DNA of 64,000 bases from an uncultured Desulfatiglans sp. (GTDB lineage: Bacteria; Desulfobacterota; DSM-4660; Desulfatiglandales; Desulfatiglandaceae), in the NCBI GenBank assembly GCA_900498135.1, contig LR026961.1, positions 520,874 through 584,873 on the forward strand, read 5' to 3'. The notes under the pieces were generated by a model. That model was not told where the DNA came from, ran no database searches, and was given only the letters and a program-made list of their open reading frames with translations. Shown one piece after another: positions 26,743-37,655 of this stretch; within the stretch, counting starts at the first letter, position 1; each line of letters begins with the position of its first letter. Both the position numbers and the translations under genes were made by a program.

Positions 26743-27453
26743 ATGGAAAAAATCACCCCGGAAACCTACGAAAAATACATCAAGGGTCTGACGGATATCA
26801 GCCGGGCCATCACCTCCGATCTCTACCTGGAGGATATCCTGAAACTGATAGTAATGGTCACGGCCAAGGTTACCGGTGTTGAGATATGCTCTCTGTGGCT
26901 TATAGATGAGGGGCAGGAGCCGAAGTCTATCAGACTGAAGGCCACCCAGGCCATCGATCCGGACTATGTCAAGGACCGCTCCCTCGGCATGGACGAAGGG
27001 GTCGTGGGCTATGTCGCCACCCACAGGCAGCCGCTGATCCTGCGCGACGTGCTCAAGGAGCCGCGCTTCAAGGAAAAGGAGATGGCCCGCAAACTCGGGC
27101 TCGTGTCCATGCTCGGCATCCCCATGCACGGGAAGGATCAGCAGGTCATCGGCGTCTTGAACTGCTTCACCTCCGAACCGCACGACTTCTCGCAGACCGA
27201 GGTCAACCTCATCACCGCCGTCGCGAACCAGGCCGCCGTCGCGATCATGAACACCGAACTGATGGTCCAGACGAAGGTCATCCAGGAGGAACTCGAAACG
27301 CGCAAGCTCCTGGAACGGGCCAAGGAAGTGGTCATGCGGCGCCGCAACATGAAGGCGGACGAGGCCCATCGCTGGCTGCAGAAGCGGAGCATGGACAGCC
27401 GGAAGTCCATCCGCTACGTCGCCGAAGCGGTCCTCCTCTCGGACGAACTGTAG
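26743..27453 (+). CDS. GAF-ANTAR transcription antiterminator
   Basis: The 236-residue protein has a GAF sensor domain (about 15-170, ending in FSQTEVNLITAVANQAAVAI) and a C-terminal ANTAR domain (about 183-236: three helices with LLERAKEVVMRR and ADEAHRWLQ). ANTAR domains bind paired hexaloop RNA hairpins and prevent intrinsic termination, as in AmiR, NasR and EutV. No receiver domain is present, so the signal is expected to be a small ligand bound by the GAF domain. The next gene downstream has exactly such a leader (27648-27725), so it is the likely target. The start lacks a strong ribosome-binding site, suggesting low expression. Confidence 0.92.
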   Translation: MEKITPETYEKYIKGLTDISRAITSDLYLEDILKLIVMVTAKVTGVEICSLWLIDEGQEPKSIRLKATQAIDPDYVKDRSLGMDEGVVGYVATHRQPLILRDVLKEPRFKEKEMARKLGLVSMLGIPMHGKDQQVIGVLNCFTSEPHDFSQTEVNLITAVANQAAVAIMNTELMVQTKVIQEELETRKLLERAKEVVMRRRNMKADEAHRWLQKRSMDSRKSIRYVAEAVLLSDEL

Positions 27454-27539: not shown

Positions 27540-27573
27540 GGCCGGTTTTTCAGCTCTGCTGAAAAAACCGGCC
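27540..27573 (+). terminator. Strong hairpin after the GAF-ANTAR gene
   Basis: GGCCGGTTTTTCAGC and GCTGAAAAAACCGGCC form a near-perfect stem with a TCT loop, 86 bases past the stop codon. It has no long T-tract after it, so it may terminate inefficiently or protect the 3' end. It separates the regulator transcript from the downstream promoter. Confidence 0.6.
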
Positions 27574-27592: not shown

Positions 27593-27621
27593 TTGACAGG
27601 GGGCGTTACCCTTACTAAGAT
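27593..27621 (+). promoter_or_regulatory. Sigma-70-type promoter of the glutamate synthase-like gene
   Basis: TTGACA (27593-27598) and TAAGAT (27616-27621) have an ideal 17-base spacer. Transcription would start near 27628, placing both hexaloop hairpins and the terminator in the leader RNA. Confidence 0.8.
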
Positions 27622-27647
27622 AGTCAAACATTTTAAAGCATGGATGA

Positions 27648-27725
27648 AACCTGCACAATGGCGTGCGGGTTGCACCATAATAAAGACAAAGGCGTCTACC
27701 CCTTCGCGGGGAGGCGCCTTTTTTT
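27648..27725 (+). promoter_or_regulatory. ANTAR-responsive dual-hexaloop antiterminator leader with intrinsic terminator
   Basis: P1 (27648-27671) is a 9-bp stem, AACCTGCAC with GTGCGGGTT, closing the hexaloop AATGGC. P2 (27684-27697) is AGAC with GTCT, closing the hexaloop AAAGGC. Both loops have A at position 1 and G at position 4, the defining bases of ANTAR RNA targets. The P2 loop and its 3' arm are part of the 5' arm of a terminator: AAGGCGTCT (27689-27697) pairs with the AGGCGCCTT block (27712-27720), an inner CCCC/GGGG stem follows, and seven T residues end it (27719-27725). P2 and the terminator therefore exclude each other. Binding of an ANTAR dimer to P1-P2 should allow read-through into the gene at 27758. 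Confidence 0.88.
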
Positions 27726-27757
27726 GTTTTTCACCTTATTGAACGGAGGACATCATC

Positions 27758-29341
27758 ATGAACCTGTGCACACCGAATTCCAACGAATCCCTTCAGACCA
27801 AAAACCGCTCCCGCGACGTGGCGCCCCAATCGGGGATCTGCACCCGCTGCGTGGACGGGTGCAAAGGCAACTGCGACCTCTTCAACGCCACCTTCCGCAG
27901 CCGTGAACTCCTGTATCCCACGCCCTTCGGCGATATCACCGCCGGCTCCGGCAAGGATTATCCGGTCGATTACTCCCATCTGAACATCATGGGATACGCG
28001 CTCGGGGCCGAAGGGACCGTGGCGGACCCGGACCACGCCACCTTTCCGAGCGTCAACACCGAAACGGCCTTCGGGACGAGCGACAAGGTCAGGATGAAGA
28101 TCCCCATGTTCACGGGCGCCCTGGGCAGCACGGAGATCGCACGCAAGAACTGGGAGCACTTCGCCATCGGCGCGGCCATCACAGGCATCAGCCTCGTGTG
28201 CGGTGAAAATGTCTGCGGCATCGACCCCGGCCTCGAATTCGACGCGAACGGGAAGGTGAAAGAGGCCCCCGACATGCGGCGGAGGGTCGAGGAATACCGC
28301 CGGTATCACAGCGGCTATGGCGACATCCTGGTCCAGATGAATGTCGAGGACACGCGGCTTGGCGTGGCCGAGTACGTCATCGACAAGCTCGGCGTCGAAA
28401 CCATCGAACTCAAGTGGGGCCAGGGCGCCAAGTGCATCGGCGGTGAAATCAAGGTCAACTCGCTCGAGCGGGCCATCCAGCTCAAAAAGCGCGGCTACAT
28501 CGTCACCCCCGACCCCGAAAGCCCCGCCAACCAGGCGGCCTTCAGAGACGGGGCCATCAAGGAGTTCGAACGTCACTCGCGCCTGGGCTTCGTCGACCAG
28601 GAGGGCTTCATGAGGGAGGTCGAGCGGCTGCGCAAGCTCGGCGCCAAACGGGTCACCCTGAAAACCGGTGCGTACCCGATGAGGGAATTGGCCATGGCGA
28701 TCCGCTGGTCTTCGGACGCCGGGATCGACCTGCTGACCATCGACGGCGCGCCCGGCGGAACAGGCATGAGCCCCTGGCGCATGATGGAGGAGTGGGGCGT
28801 CCCGTCCATCTATCTGCACGCGATGGCCTACGAACTGTGCGAGCGCCTGGCCAGGAACGGACGCCGGGTGCCGGACATCGCCTTTGCCGGCGGGTTCTCG
28901 AGCGAAGACCACATCTTCAAGGCCCTGGCCCTCGGCGCCCCTTACTGCAAGGCCGTCTGCATGGGCCGCGCCCTGATGATCCCGGGCATGGTGGGCAAGA
29001 ACATCGGCCGCTGGCTGCAGGGTGAGGACGGCGGGCTCCCCTCGACCGTCTCGAAGTACGGCTCCTCCAAGGAAGAGATCTTCGTCTGCTACGAAGACCT
29101 CAAGGCCACCTACGGGAAGGAAGTGGAAAGCTTCCCGCTGGGGGCCATCGGGATCTACAGCGCCGGCGAGAAGCTGCGCGTGGGGCTCCAGCAGCTCATG
29201 GCCGGCGCCCGCAAGTGGCGCGTCGACCTGATCAACCGCAGGGACCTCGCCTCCCTGACCGAAGAAGCCGCGCAGGTGACGGGGATTCCCTACATCATGA
29301 ATGCGTACCGGGACGAGGCCCTGGCCGTCATCGACGCCTGA
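27758..29341 (+). CDS. Stand-alone FMN-binding glutamate synthase domain protein
   Basis: The 527-residue protein corresponds to the FMN and 2-oxoglutarate-binding domain of glutamate synthase large subunit, without the glutaminase domain. VETIELKWGQGAKCIGGEIK and LLTIDGAPGGTGMSPW are the conserved barrel motifs, and FAGGFSSEDHIFKALALGA is the flavin-phosphate loop. An N-terminal cysteine cluster (CTRCVDGCKGNC, residues 28-39) may bind an extra Fe-S centre. Members of this group probably make glutamate, or use another amino donor, with ferredoxin-type electrons; that is inference. GGAGG lies upstream of the ATG. Its leader places it under ANTAR control, in keeping with nitrogen regulation. 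Confidence 0.88.
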   Translation: MNLCTPNSNESLQTKNRSRDVAPQSGICTRCVDGCKGNCDLFNATFRSRELLYPTPFGDITAGSGKDYPVDYSHLNIMGYALGAEGTVADPDHATFPSVNTETAFGTSDKVRMKIPMFTGALGSTEIARKNWEHFAIGAAITGISLVCGENVCGIDPGLEFDANGKVKEAPDMRRRVEEYRRYHSGYGDILVQMNVEDTRLGVAEYVIDKLGVETIELKWGQGAKCIGGEIKVNSLERAIQLKKRGYIVTPDPESPANQAAFRDGAIKEFERHSRLGFVDQEGFMREVERLRKLGAKRVTLKTGAYPMRELAMAIRWSSDAGIDLLTIDGAPGGTGMSPWRMMEEWGVPSIYLHAMAYELCERLARNGRRVPDIAFAGGFSSEDHIFKALALGAPYCKAVCMGRALMIPGMVGKNIGRWLQGEDGGLPSTVSKYGSSKEEIFVCYEDLKATYGKEVESFPLGAIGIYSAGEKLRVGLQQLMAGARKWRVDLINRRDLASLTEEAAQVTGIPYIMNAYRDEALAVIDA

Positions 29342-29472: not shown

Positions 29473-30771
29473 TCAGCGAATTTTGACCCAAAGCAGGCGG
29501 GCCGGCTCGGGACCGGGGTTCTTCCACTGGCTCGGCATCCCGCTCCTCAAATAAATCACATCCCCCTCCTCCGCCGTGTGGACACTTTTCCCCAGGACGA
29601 ATTCGAGCCTCCCCGAGAGGAGATAGCCCATTTCTTCGCCCTTGTGGATCATGAAATGGTTATGGATGCTCCCCCTGGGCTGGATCTCCAGCAGATAGGG
29701 CTCGGCCTTCGGCTCCAGGTCGAGCGGGGTGAGGAGCTTCGCCGTCACTTGCCCCTCCGGCAGGTCGGCGAGCCGCACATCCAGGCCCTCCGCCCCTCGG
29801 AAGACCACCGGGTGATCCTCCTCGCCTTCGCCGCGAAAGAAGGCGGCCATCTCGACGGACAGGACTTCGGCCATCTTCAACAACGCCGGAAGAGAGGGGT
29901 AGATCAGGTTGCCTTCCACCTGCGAGATGGTGCTCGGGGTCACGCCCACCATCTTGGCGAGTTCGGTCTGCGAGAAACCGCGCCGCGTTCGGAGCTCTTT
30001 CAACCGTGGGCCGATATCCAGGCCCCCGGTGGACCGCCGCTCCGACTCGAAGGTGACGGTCAGGTCCCGGGACCAATAGGAAAAGGGTTTGTCGAGGGTG
30101 TCCAGGTTGCGCTTTTCCGCCTTGAGGACCGTCAGCGAGGTCCTTCCCCGCTTGACCGAGAGCTCGATCGCGACCTGGGCGATCTGGTTGATCTGGGCCT
30201 TGAGGCGCGCGGAGTGCGCACGCTTTTCGAGGATCCAGTAGGCGATCGTGTTCAATTCATACAGGCGCGGGCAGGAATGGCTGTAGAACTCGCGGATGTG
30301 CTCCTCGCCGCCCCACAACTCCTGCATCCCGGTCAGGCTTTCGAAGACGAACCGGACGTCGCCCTCCATCGGGGCATGCACCCCGTAGAAGGCATCCTTC
30401 ACCCGTTCGACCTCCCGGGGCTCTCTGACGCAGAGGATGCGGCAGGGCCCCTCCGCCTCCGGCCGGTCGTAGAAGCGGAGGAAGACGTCGGAGCCATCGC
30501 CTTTTCCATAGGTGAAGCAGTCGAGGATCGTCAAGTACGGGCTTTCCGCCAAAGGACCCAGCTTGTCGAGGAGGTTTCTCGGCGACCGGTCGAAGCTGAC
30601 GTAGATGATCGGACGGCCCTGGGCCTGGGACGCCTGGATGAAATTGAGGCAGAAGACGGAGGCCAGGCTTCCGGCATCGTCATGCCAGACGACATTGTCG
30701 CCGATGAACAGCCCGCCGAGCAACCGGTCGAGATCCTCGACCCCCGATGCCACTCGTATCCTTTTGGTCAT
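29473..30771 (-). CDS. KaiC-like/XRE/cupin fusion regulator
   Basis: The 432-residue protein joins three modules. Residues 1-240 resemble a RecA/KaiC-type ATPase, but the Walker A position reads WHDDAGSLASVF and lacks the GKT. Residues 254-305 are an XRE helix-turn-helix (LRTRRGFSQTELAKMVGV, followed by STISQVEG). Residues 360-432 are a cupin (IHNHFMIHKGEEMGYLLSG) for a small ligand. XRE-cupin proteins usually repress or activate catabolic and transport genes; the added KaiC-like domain is unusual. It lies 20 bases after the acyl-CoA ligase gene and is the last gene of the liv operon, so it probably regulates that operon in response to the imported acid or its CoA ester. Confidence 0.85.
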   Translation of the reverse strand: MTKRIRVASGVEDLDRLLGGLFIGDNVVWHDDAGSLASVFCLNFIQASQAQGRPIIYVSFDRSPRNLLDKLGPLAESPYLTILDCFTYGKGDGSDVFLRFYDRPEAEGPCRILCVREPREVERVKDAFYGVHAPMEGDVRFVFESLTGMQELWGGEEHIREFYSHSCPRLYELNTIAYWILEKRAHSARLKAQINQIAQVAIELSVKRGRTSLTVLKAEKRNLDTLDKPFSYWSRDLTVTFESERRSTGGLDIGPRLKELRTRRGFSQTELAKMVGVTPSTISQVEGNLIYPSLPALLKMAEVLSVEMAAFFRGEGEEDHPVVFRGAEGLDVRLADLPEGQVTAKLLTPLDLEPKAEPYLLEIQPRGSIHNHFMIHKGEEMGYLLSGRLEFVLGKSVHTAEEGDVIYLRSGMPSQWKNPGPEPARLLWVKIR

Positions 30772-36498: not shown

Positions 36499-37119
36499 TT
36501 AGAATTGCGGATATAAGCGTTTCAACTTGATCCTGGCATCGGATGTTTTGAAGTGCCAGGCAATCTTTTTTGCGCTGTTGTTTCGGTCTGTTTCCCATGT
36601 GGCCACTTCAGCCCGCATGGTAGCAATATCGGCGATCCTGCGGTCGAGGCACTGCCCTTTCAGGACACTGAGTTCGATCTCCGCCATGTTGAGCCAACTG
36701 CCATGTTTCGGCGTGTAATGAATCTCAAGCCTTTCGGCGAGTCGCCTGGCCTCCGGGGGCTCGAACGTCTCATAGAGTGAGGCAATATTGTGAGTGTTCA
36801 GATTGTCCATAACCAGCCGAACTTTGATCACTTCGGGATAGCGGTCATCGAGCATCTGCTTGATCTGCAATGCCCAGTCTTTTCTGGTGCGTTGTTCCGT
36901 GACAGCCACATGCCGCTTGCCGGCGAGCGGCTCCACCGCCATGAAGATCTGAGCCACCCCATTTCTAACGTATTCGTCATCCATCCGTATGGGTTGTCCT
37001 GGCTTGCATGGAATCGGGTCGCGCACTTCGCCAATCAACTGTTTGCAGGATTCATCCATGCACACCACCGGGTAATCGGGATCATACGCCAAGCGGTAAA
37101 CTTCCAGAACATCCTCCAT
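36499..37119 (-). CDS. IS630 transposase, DDE catalytic part (frame B)
   Basis: The 206-residue frame holds the IS630/DDE_3 endonuclease: VVCMDESCKQL with the first aspartate, VRLVMDNLNTHN with the second, and YTPKHGSWLNMAEIELS with the glutamate. The conserved family sequence extends upstream of this ATG in the same frame (KYWKIPPEGSAAFVAAM), so the natural product is likely made by frameshifting from the upstream frame and not from the internal ATG. Confidence 0.88.
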   Translation of the reverse strand: MEDVLEVYRLAYDPDYPVVCMDESCKQLIGEVRDPIPCKPGQPIRMDDEYVRNGVAQIFMAVEPLAGKRHVAVTEQRTRKDWALQIKQMLDDRYPEVIKVRLVMDNLNTHNIASLYETFEPPEARRLAERLEIHYTPKHGSWLNMAEIELSVLKGQCLDRRIADIATMRAEVATWETDRNNSAKKIAWHFKTSDARIKLKRLYPQF

Positions 37120-37124
37120 CGCCG

Positions 37125-37655
37125 CTACGAACGCCGCACTCCCTTCCGGCGGGATTTTCCAGTACTTGCTGAGGTGAGGTTTAAGTTCGTTTTTTTTAAT
37201 ATGCGCTGTACGGTCATGTGTGAAACAGCGCGCGCAAACTTAAGTTCAACGGCCTTGTCCGCAAGCAGTCTGACCGTCCATCGCTGGTGTCCATCCGGCG
37301 CCTCCGAACAGGCCAAAGCGATCAGGCGTGCTTCAAAAGCCCCATCAAAGATGACCTCCCGGGGTGGCTTTTCCCTGGGCTTACGCTCCAGGGCCGCCTC
37401 GAGCCCTTCTTCCACGAAGCGCTTCTTCAGGTGCTCGATCATGCGGGTACTGGCGCCCAGAGCTGTTGCCACTTCATCCGTAGCCCATGCCGGGCCATCG
37501 GGGCCAGCATCGCACAGTAACAAAGCACGTGCGTGGATGAACTTTCTTGCCTGGATTTTACCGCGCCGTGTCAATGCCTCCAGTTCTTTGCGTTCCTCTG
37601 CACTCAGCGTTACTCGGTATCTTGGCGCCATGGCGACCCTCCTTGTGGTCGCCAT
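37125..37655 (-). CDS. IS630 transposase, DNA-binding part (frame A)
   Basis: The 176-residue frame has the N-terminal helix-turn-helix pair (ATALGASTRMIEHLKKRFVE) and the winged-helix region (SHMTVQRILKK). After KK the family-typical sequence moves to the -1 frame at a run of eight A residues on the minus strand (37190-37197). There the codons TTA AAA AAA provide an A-AAA-AAA slippery heptamer. The out-of-frame tail to the stop is not family-like. This suggests programmed -1 frameshifting, common in IS630, and not simple decay. Confidence 0.87.
   Translation of the reverse strand: MATTRRVAMAPRYRVTLSAEERKELEALTRRGKIQARKFIHARALLLCDAGPDGPAWATDEVATALGASTRMIEHLKKRFVEEGLEAALERKPREKPPREVIFDGAFEARLIALACSEAPDGHQRWTVRLLADKAVELKFARAVSHMTVQRILKKTNLNLTSASTGKSRRKGVRRS

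Follow-up and report, generated by a model that had tools for sequence, protein, structure and literature searches.

The window, a stretch of 64,000 nucleotides, carries a leader in which a promoter, two hairpins (P1 and P2) and an intrinsic terminator follow one another between a gene for a GAF-ANTAR protein and a gene (glt) for a glutamate-synthase-like enzyme. The features and the evidence for each are:

26743-27453, + strand: GAF-ANTAR gene, 236 amino acids (Pfam, AlphaFold model)
27540-27573, no strand assigned: strong hairpin GGCCGGTTTTTCAGC/GCTGAAAAAACCGGCC, past the end of the GAF-ANTAR gene and ahead of the leader promoter (sequence, fold)
27593-27621, + strand: leader promoter, sigma-70-type, TTGACA-17-TAAGAT (sequence; -35 box kept in homologous leaders)
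27648-27671, + strand: P1 hairpin, hexaloop AATGGC at 27657-27662 (sequence, fold, compensatory changes)
27684-27697, + strand: P2 hairpin AGAC-AAAGGC-GTCT, hexaloop AAAGGC at 27688-27693 (sequence, fold)
27688-27731, + strand: intrinsic terminator, 5' arm 27688-27702, 3' arm 27708-27721, U tract 27719-27731 (sequence, fold, covariation)
27745-27749, + strand: ribosome-binding site GGAGG of the glt gene (sequence)
27758-29341, + strand: single-domain glutamate-synthase-like gene (glt), 527 amino acids (Pfam PF01645, 1.2e-16)

The two A1/G4 hexaloop stem-loops that the original prediction had placed here are present: P1 reads AACCTGCAC-AATGGC-GTGCGGGTT, both loops are of six nucleotides with A at position 1 and G at position 4, the loop-closing pairs are CAC/GTG (P1) and GAC/GTC (P2), and the linker between the hairpins is 12 nt long in the window and longer in some relatives. 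The claimed overlap of the second stem-loop with the terminator is equally literal, the first part of the terminator 5' arm being exactly the P2 loop plus the P2 3' arm. The GAF-ANTAR gene does lie directly upstream, on the same strand, with ~305 bp between its stop codon and the glt ATG and with the leader promoter in between. The hairpin at 27540-27573, which has an internal T5/A6 run, may mark a transcription boundary between regulator gene and leader; its role is uncertain because neither strand has a T-run behind it.

The leader has a folding z score of -4.7 relative to shuffled sequences. The predicted energies are -3.3 kcal/mol for P2 alone and -23.4 kcal/mol for the terminator; in growing transcripts, P2 is the predicted state as far as nt 27712 and gives way to the terminator from 27715, a switch that bears out the mutually exclusive folding proposed for this RNA. 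Since P2 is displaced by a far stronger terminator, read-through needs a stabilizer of P2, which is the role of the ANTAR dimers in eut leaders (PMC3369931, PMC8934654).

The regulator consists of a GAF domain (amino acids 29-168; PF01590, 3.4e-22), a coiled coil and an ANTAR domain (amino acids 181-231; PF03861, 2.3e-18, scoring 66.1 bits against a Pfam cut-off of 27.3). Pfam finds these two domains and no receiver domain, in agreement with the description of a stand-alone GAF-ANTAR protein. AlphaFold models it (pLDDT 81.6) with a GAF fold, a long coiled-coil helix (151-201) and the ANTAR helices. Counterparts of EutV R142, K143, K149, M172 and R175 are present in the ANTAR domain, and the contacts of EutV Glu160, Arg168 and Arg177 are not kept; at the position of EutV Tyr164, the window protein has an unusual His, as does AmiR, and most relatives have Tyr or Phe. 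By sequence, the GAF part comes closest to NifA (1.4e-17) and PtsP (3.4e-16), some nine orders of magnitude ahead of the next families, and, among structures, to PtsP (3ci6, 5.9e-13). A search by fold brought up a wide variety of GAF proteins, so that the fold does not name the ligand. The NifA GAF domain binds 2-oxoglutarate (PMC8219145) and that of PtsP (EI-Ntr) binds glutamine (PMC4848567); the likeness to these two provides a lead, and suggests, speculatively, that the GAF-ANTAR protein may sense glutamine or 2-oxoglutarate.

That the target is glutamate synthase-like is confirmed by the PF01645 match in the gene at 27758-29341, whose product combines an N-terminal cysteine cluster with this FMN-binding synthase domain. 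Pfam finds no glutamine amidotransferase domain in the 527-residue protein, which is therefore named a single-domain, glutamate-synthase-like enzyme; a PDB sequence search with it returned weak matches to designed TIM barrels and nothing else. The glt gene appears to be monocistronic in the window because the next gene (29473-30771, - strand), which encodes a KaiC-like ATPase/HTH/cupin fusion, is convergent with it. Orthologues of this fusion (61-69% identical) occupy the corresponding position at 10 of 80 named GAF-ANTAR loci. Farther away, at 36499-37655 (- strand), lie two adjoining transposase-like ORFs, IS630-like by eye, with transporter genes on both sides. The closest named relatives of the genome are assemblies of Desulfobacteraceae, Desulfobacterales and Desulfatiglandales.

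Within its own genome the arrangement is singular. When both strands are scanned for a pair of A1/G4 hexaloop hairpins of which the second lies within a terminator, the window has one match and 150 Markov-random windows have none. A covariance model (R2) built from 30 leaders, with the window's genus left out and other families of the phylum included, scores the window leader at 74.6 bits (E 1.2e-16); the next match in the window is the leader's own reverse complement (18.2 bits). Another model, R1, contains the window sequence and so is not independent evidence. With each model the window leader is the one significant site in the whole 4.8-Mb, single-contig genome, and the window's GAF-ANTAR protein is the sole ANTAR protein encoded there. 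A weak genome match at 215 kb (E ~0.65) proved to be an ordinary terminator between convergent genes.

The covariance search of Desulfobacterota that the original prediction had proposed finds leaders beside GAF-ANTAR genes again and again, including in other families of the phylum; R1 matches at E<=0.001 occur in 103 of 395 genomes drawn from it. A close relative of the GAF-ANTAR protein is present in 57 of 85 genomes of the class. Where class GAF-ANTAR loci have usable downstream sequence, ~42 of 54 have the leader directly downstream, followed in ~38 of those 42 by a PF01645 gene; among named loci with at least 600 nt downstream, 43 of 75 have an R1 site, with glt within 800 nt of it in 39. 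Adjacency is not obligatory, since the adjacent site is absent at 12 of the 54 class loci and 32 of the 75 named loci. Across genomes, protein and leader occur together in 40, one without the other in 6 and 5, and neither in 16 (Fisher p 7e-7, with the variant leader family f2 left out and the kinship of the genomes ignored). Family f2 has GTAATAC/GTATTAC as its P1, AACGGA-like P2 loops and a different terminator; the plan is unchanged and the GAC of P2 is kept.

All 42 homologous leaders examined have a -35 box of the same kind ahead of P1. G4 is found in both loops of 55 of 55 leaders and A1 in 54 (P1 loop) and 52 (P2 loop), figures that were partly ascertained by the search patterns used to find the sites. 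The claim of A1/G4 in both loops thus stands for the window, and for G4 throughout the homologues; A1 is not absolute, being replaced by G in four of the 55 (in P2 of L012, L029 and L056 and in P1 of L054), in leaders that are otherwise intact. In almost all of the 55 leaders the loop is flanked by AC/GU; conserved closing pairs are given as a requirement of ANTAR-target RNA in PMC3369931.

The case that had been named beforehand as speaking against the switch, homologous leaders without the hexaloops or the terminator, was checked for and the claim survived. P1 and the terminator both show compensatory changes. Two alignments of 30 leaders each were used, alignment A1 and the wider, phylum-wide alignment A4. 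For P1 and P2 together, compensated cells number 51 against 18 in shuffles (A1) and 67 against 24 (A4), and for the terminator 11 against 1.8 and 14 against 2.8; within P1, compensatory changes affect 7 of 9 pairs in alignment A1 and 8 of 9 in A4. In A4, the number of terminator pairs in which both partners have changed was reached by 96 of 500 shuffles and so does not distinguish. The near-invariance of its GAC/GTC core (kept in 54 of 55 leaders) leaves P2 with little covariation. The argument for P2 lies in its 5' arm: the GAC, invariant in all 55, lies outside the terminator and is unpaired in the predicted terminator fold, yet it never changes.

Sequence and comparison thus show that all of the elements, the mutually exclusive pairing, the conservation and the co-occurrence of protein and RNA are there, and from them we infer protein binding, read-through and the direction of control. 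We put the probability at roughly 0.88 that the leader is a dedicated, GAF-ANTAR-controlled transcription antitermination switch for glutamate synthesis. It would work as follows. RNA polymerase would start at the leader promoter and make P1, then P2. Without active regulator, the emerging 3' arm of the terminator would displace P2, and transcription would stop ~30 nt before the glt start codon. With the GAF domain in its active state, probably signalling nitrogen or carbon status, an ANTAR dimer would grip the A1/G4 hexaloops, hold P2 and block the terminator, so that polymerase would pass into the glutamate-synthase gene.

A terminator in the leader of an amino-acid biosynthesis gene is also what an attenuator would offer, by ribosome stalling at Glu or Gln codons of a leader peptide or by a riboswitch or T-box, with the hexaloops incidental. 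However, a closed leader ORF preceded by a Shine-Dalgarno sequence is found in 0 of 28 leaders, which speaks against leader-peptide attenuation; Rfam has no family matching the leader at gathering score, with only chance-level matches at E<=1; and the conservation centres on the two hexaloops with their AC/GU closing pairs. The attenuator reading is thereby largely refuted and highly improbable. An ordinary terminator preceded by a chance hairpin would account for the strength of the terminator by itself (the -23.4 kcal/mol fold), but not for the absence of the motif from the 150 random windows or for the conservation across the phylum of P1 and of the P2 GAC that the terminator fold leaves unpaired; the observed covariation refutes it, and we give it practically no credence.

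Two further explanations accept a functional leader and change what controls it. The switch may be real and its polarity the other one, with the GAF-ANTAR protein active under nitrogen excess, or the terminator may be inefficient in vivo and the protein may only modulate a default-on gene. Against both stand the strength of the terminator and the overlap of P2 with the terminator arm, as in the EutV, NasR and AmiR leaders, in which binding gives read-through (PMC3369931, PMC8934654), and we consider this version unlikely. It is very improbable, finally, that some other RNA-binding protein binds the leader while the neighbouring GAF-ANTAR protein acts on different targets; adjacency alone is indeed no proof of pairing, but the genome has one ANTAR gene and one site, and adjacency and co-occurrence hold across genera and also in other families of the phylum.

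The leader possesses every testable defining feature of the ANTAR RNA family. The eut leaders of Enterococcus faecalis, the targets of EutV/EutW, resemble it (PMC3369931, PMC8934654) in having dual A1/G4 hexaloops, conserved closing pairs, a short linker (5-12 nt, a range that includes the 12 nt of the window) and P2 inside the terminator 5' arm; EutV differs in being a REC-ANTAR response regulator serving four eut terminators, whereas the window has a one-component GAF-ANTAR protein and one target. NasR, which acts at nasF in Klebsiella, is likewise a one-component sensor fused to ANTAR with a nitrogen gene as its target, but its sensor is a nitrate-binding NIT domain (PMC7496416) rather than a GAF domain. 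PtsP (EI-Ntr) and NifA have GAF parts like that of the window protein and use them to drive a phosphotransferase or a sigma-54 activator. In Pelobacter carbinolicus, also a former deltaproteobacterium, an ANTAR regulon places leaders on nitrogen genes; the targets there are nitrogenase units (PMC3369931), whereas the target here is glutamate synthesis.

The closest precedent is in Desulfotomaculum reducens, where the same class of RNA precedes the same kind of gene, glutamate synthase (PMC3369931, Fig. 9A). The class of finding was therefore already known, and the claim of a new instance holds only in part: the D. reducens leaders belong to Bacillota and are covariance predictions whose cognate sensor the available part of that paper does not name, whereas the window's sensor gene is adjacent to its leader and conserved with it. 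What is new is the one-component GAF-ANTAR protein with an adjacent, conserved and evident target, and how broad the regulon is in Desulfobacterota. GAF-ANTAR is a listed architecture. Ramesh et al. 2012 (PMC3369931), whose tables may already include some of the loci described here, report no GAF or PAS ANTAR protein as characterized by then; the 2020 NasR paper names only NIT (NasR) and LOV/PAS examples as characterized one-component ANTAR proteins. A literature search whose coverage excluded most subscription papers found no later study of a GAF-ANTAR protein.

In relatives the leaders reach further targets, nearly all of which serve glutamate synthesis or the use of amide nitrogen. They precede, in trans, an operon encoding FlpD/MvhD, MetV, MetF and a ferredoxin/Glu_synthase protein:

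FlpD-MetVF-glt operon leaders: L092, L093, L095, L097, L098, L100, L102, L104, L106, L108, L110, L113, L114, L121

They are also found before complete GltB, before a protein with amidotransferase and GXGXG domains, and before additional single-domain glutamate synthases, one of these followed by glutamate dehydrogenase; at one locus (L211) the GAF-ANTAR gene and leader are followed by glutamate dehydrogenase in place of glutamate synthase. In a single case (L094, genome G077) the leader precedes an AspRS-GatC fusion gene and then GatA, of tRNA-dependent amidation. The window's own genome has an FlpD-MetVF-glt cluster (C1, ~4.49 Mb) without the leader that relatives' copies have. In distant members of the phylum, L224, L227 and L230 stand before unknown or porin-like genes (porin-like for L230) and have a P2 closed by GGC/GCC; these are probably another ANTAR regulon.

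More tentatively, and with the odds rather against it, the GAF-ANTAR protein may be a one-component regulator acting on RNA that senses glutamine or 2-oxoglutarate itself and governs glutamate homeostasis throughout Desulfobacterota, by a regulon comprising single-domain glutamate synthases, FlpD-MetVF-glutamate synthase operons, GltB, glutamate dehydrogenase and AspRS-GatC/GatA. The adjacency of a single sensor and an evident target in many genera, together with a guess at the ligand, makes signal, binding and read-through directly testable. The leaders before the FlpD-MetVF operons suggest nitrogen control of a methylenetetrahydrofolate-reductase-like complex. The switch would be a plausible layer of nitrogen control at transcription termination in anaerobic sulfate reducers and their relatives, and one that would link glutamate synthesis to the methylenetetrahydrofolate-reductase operon.
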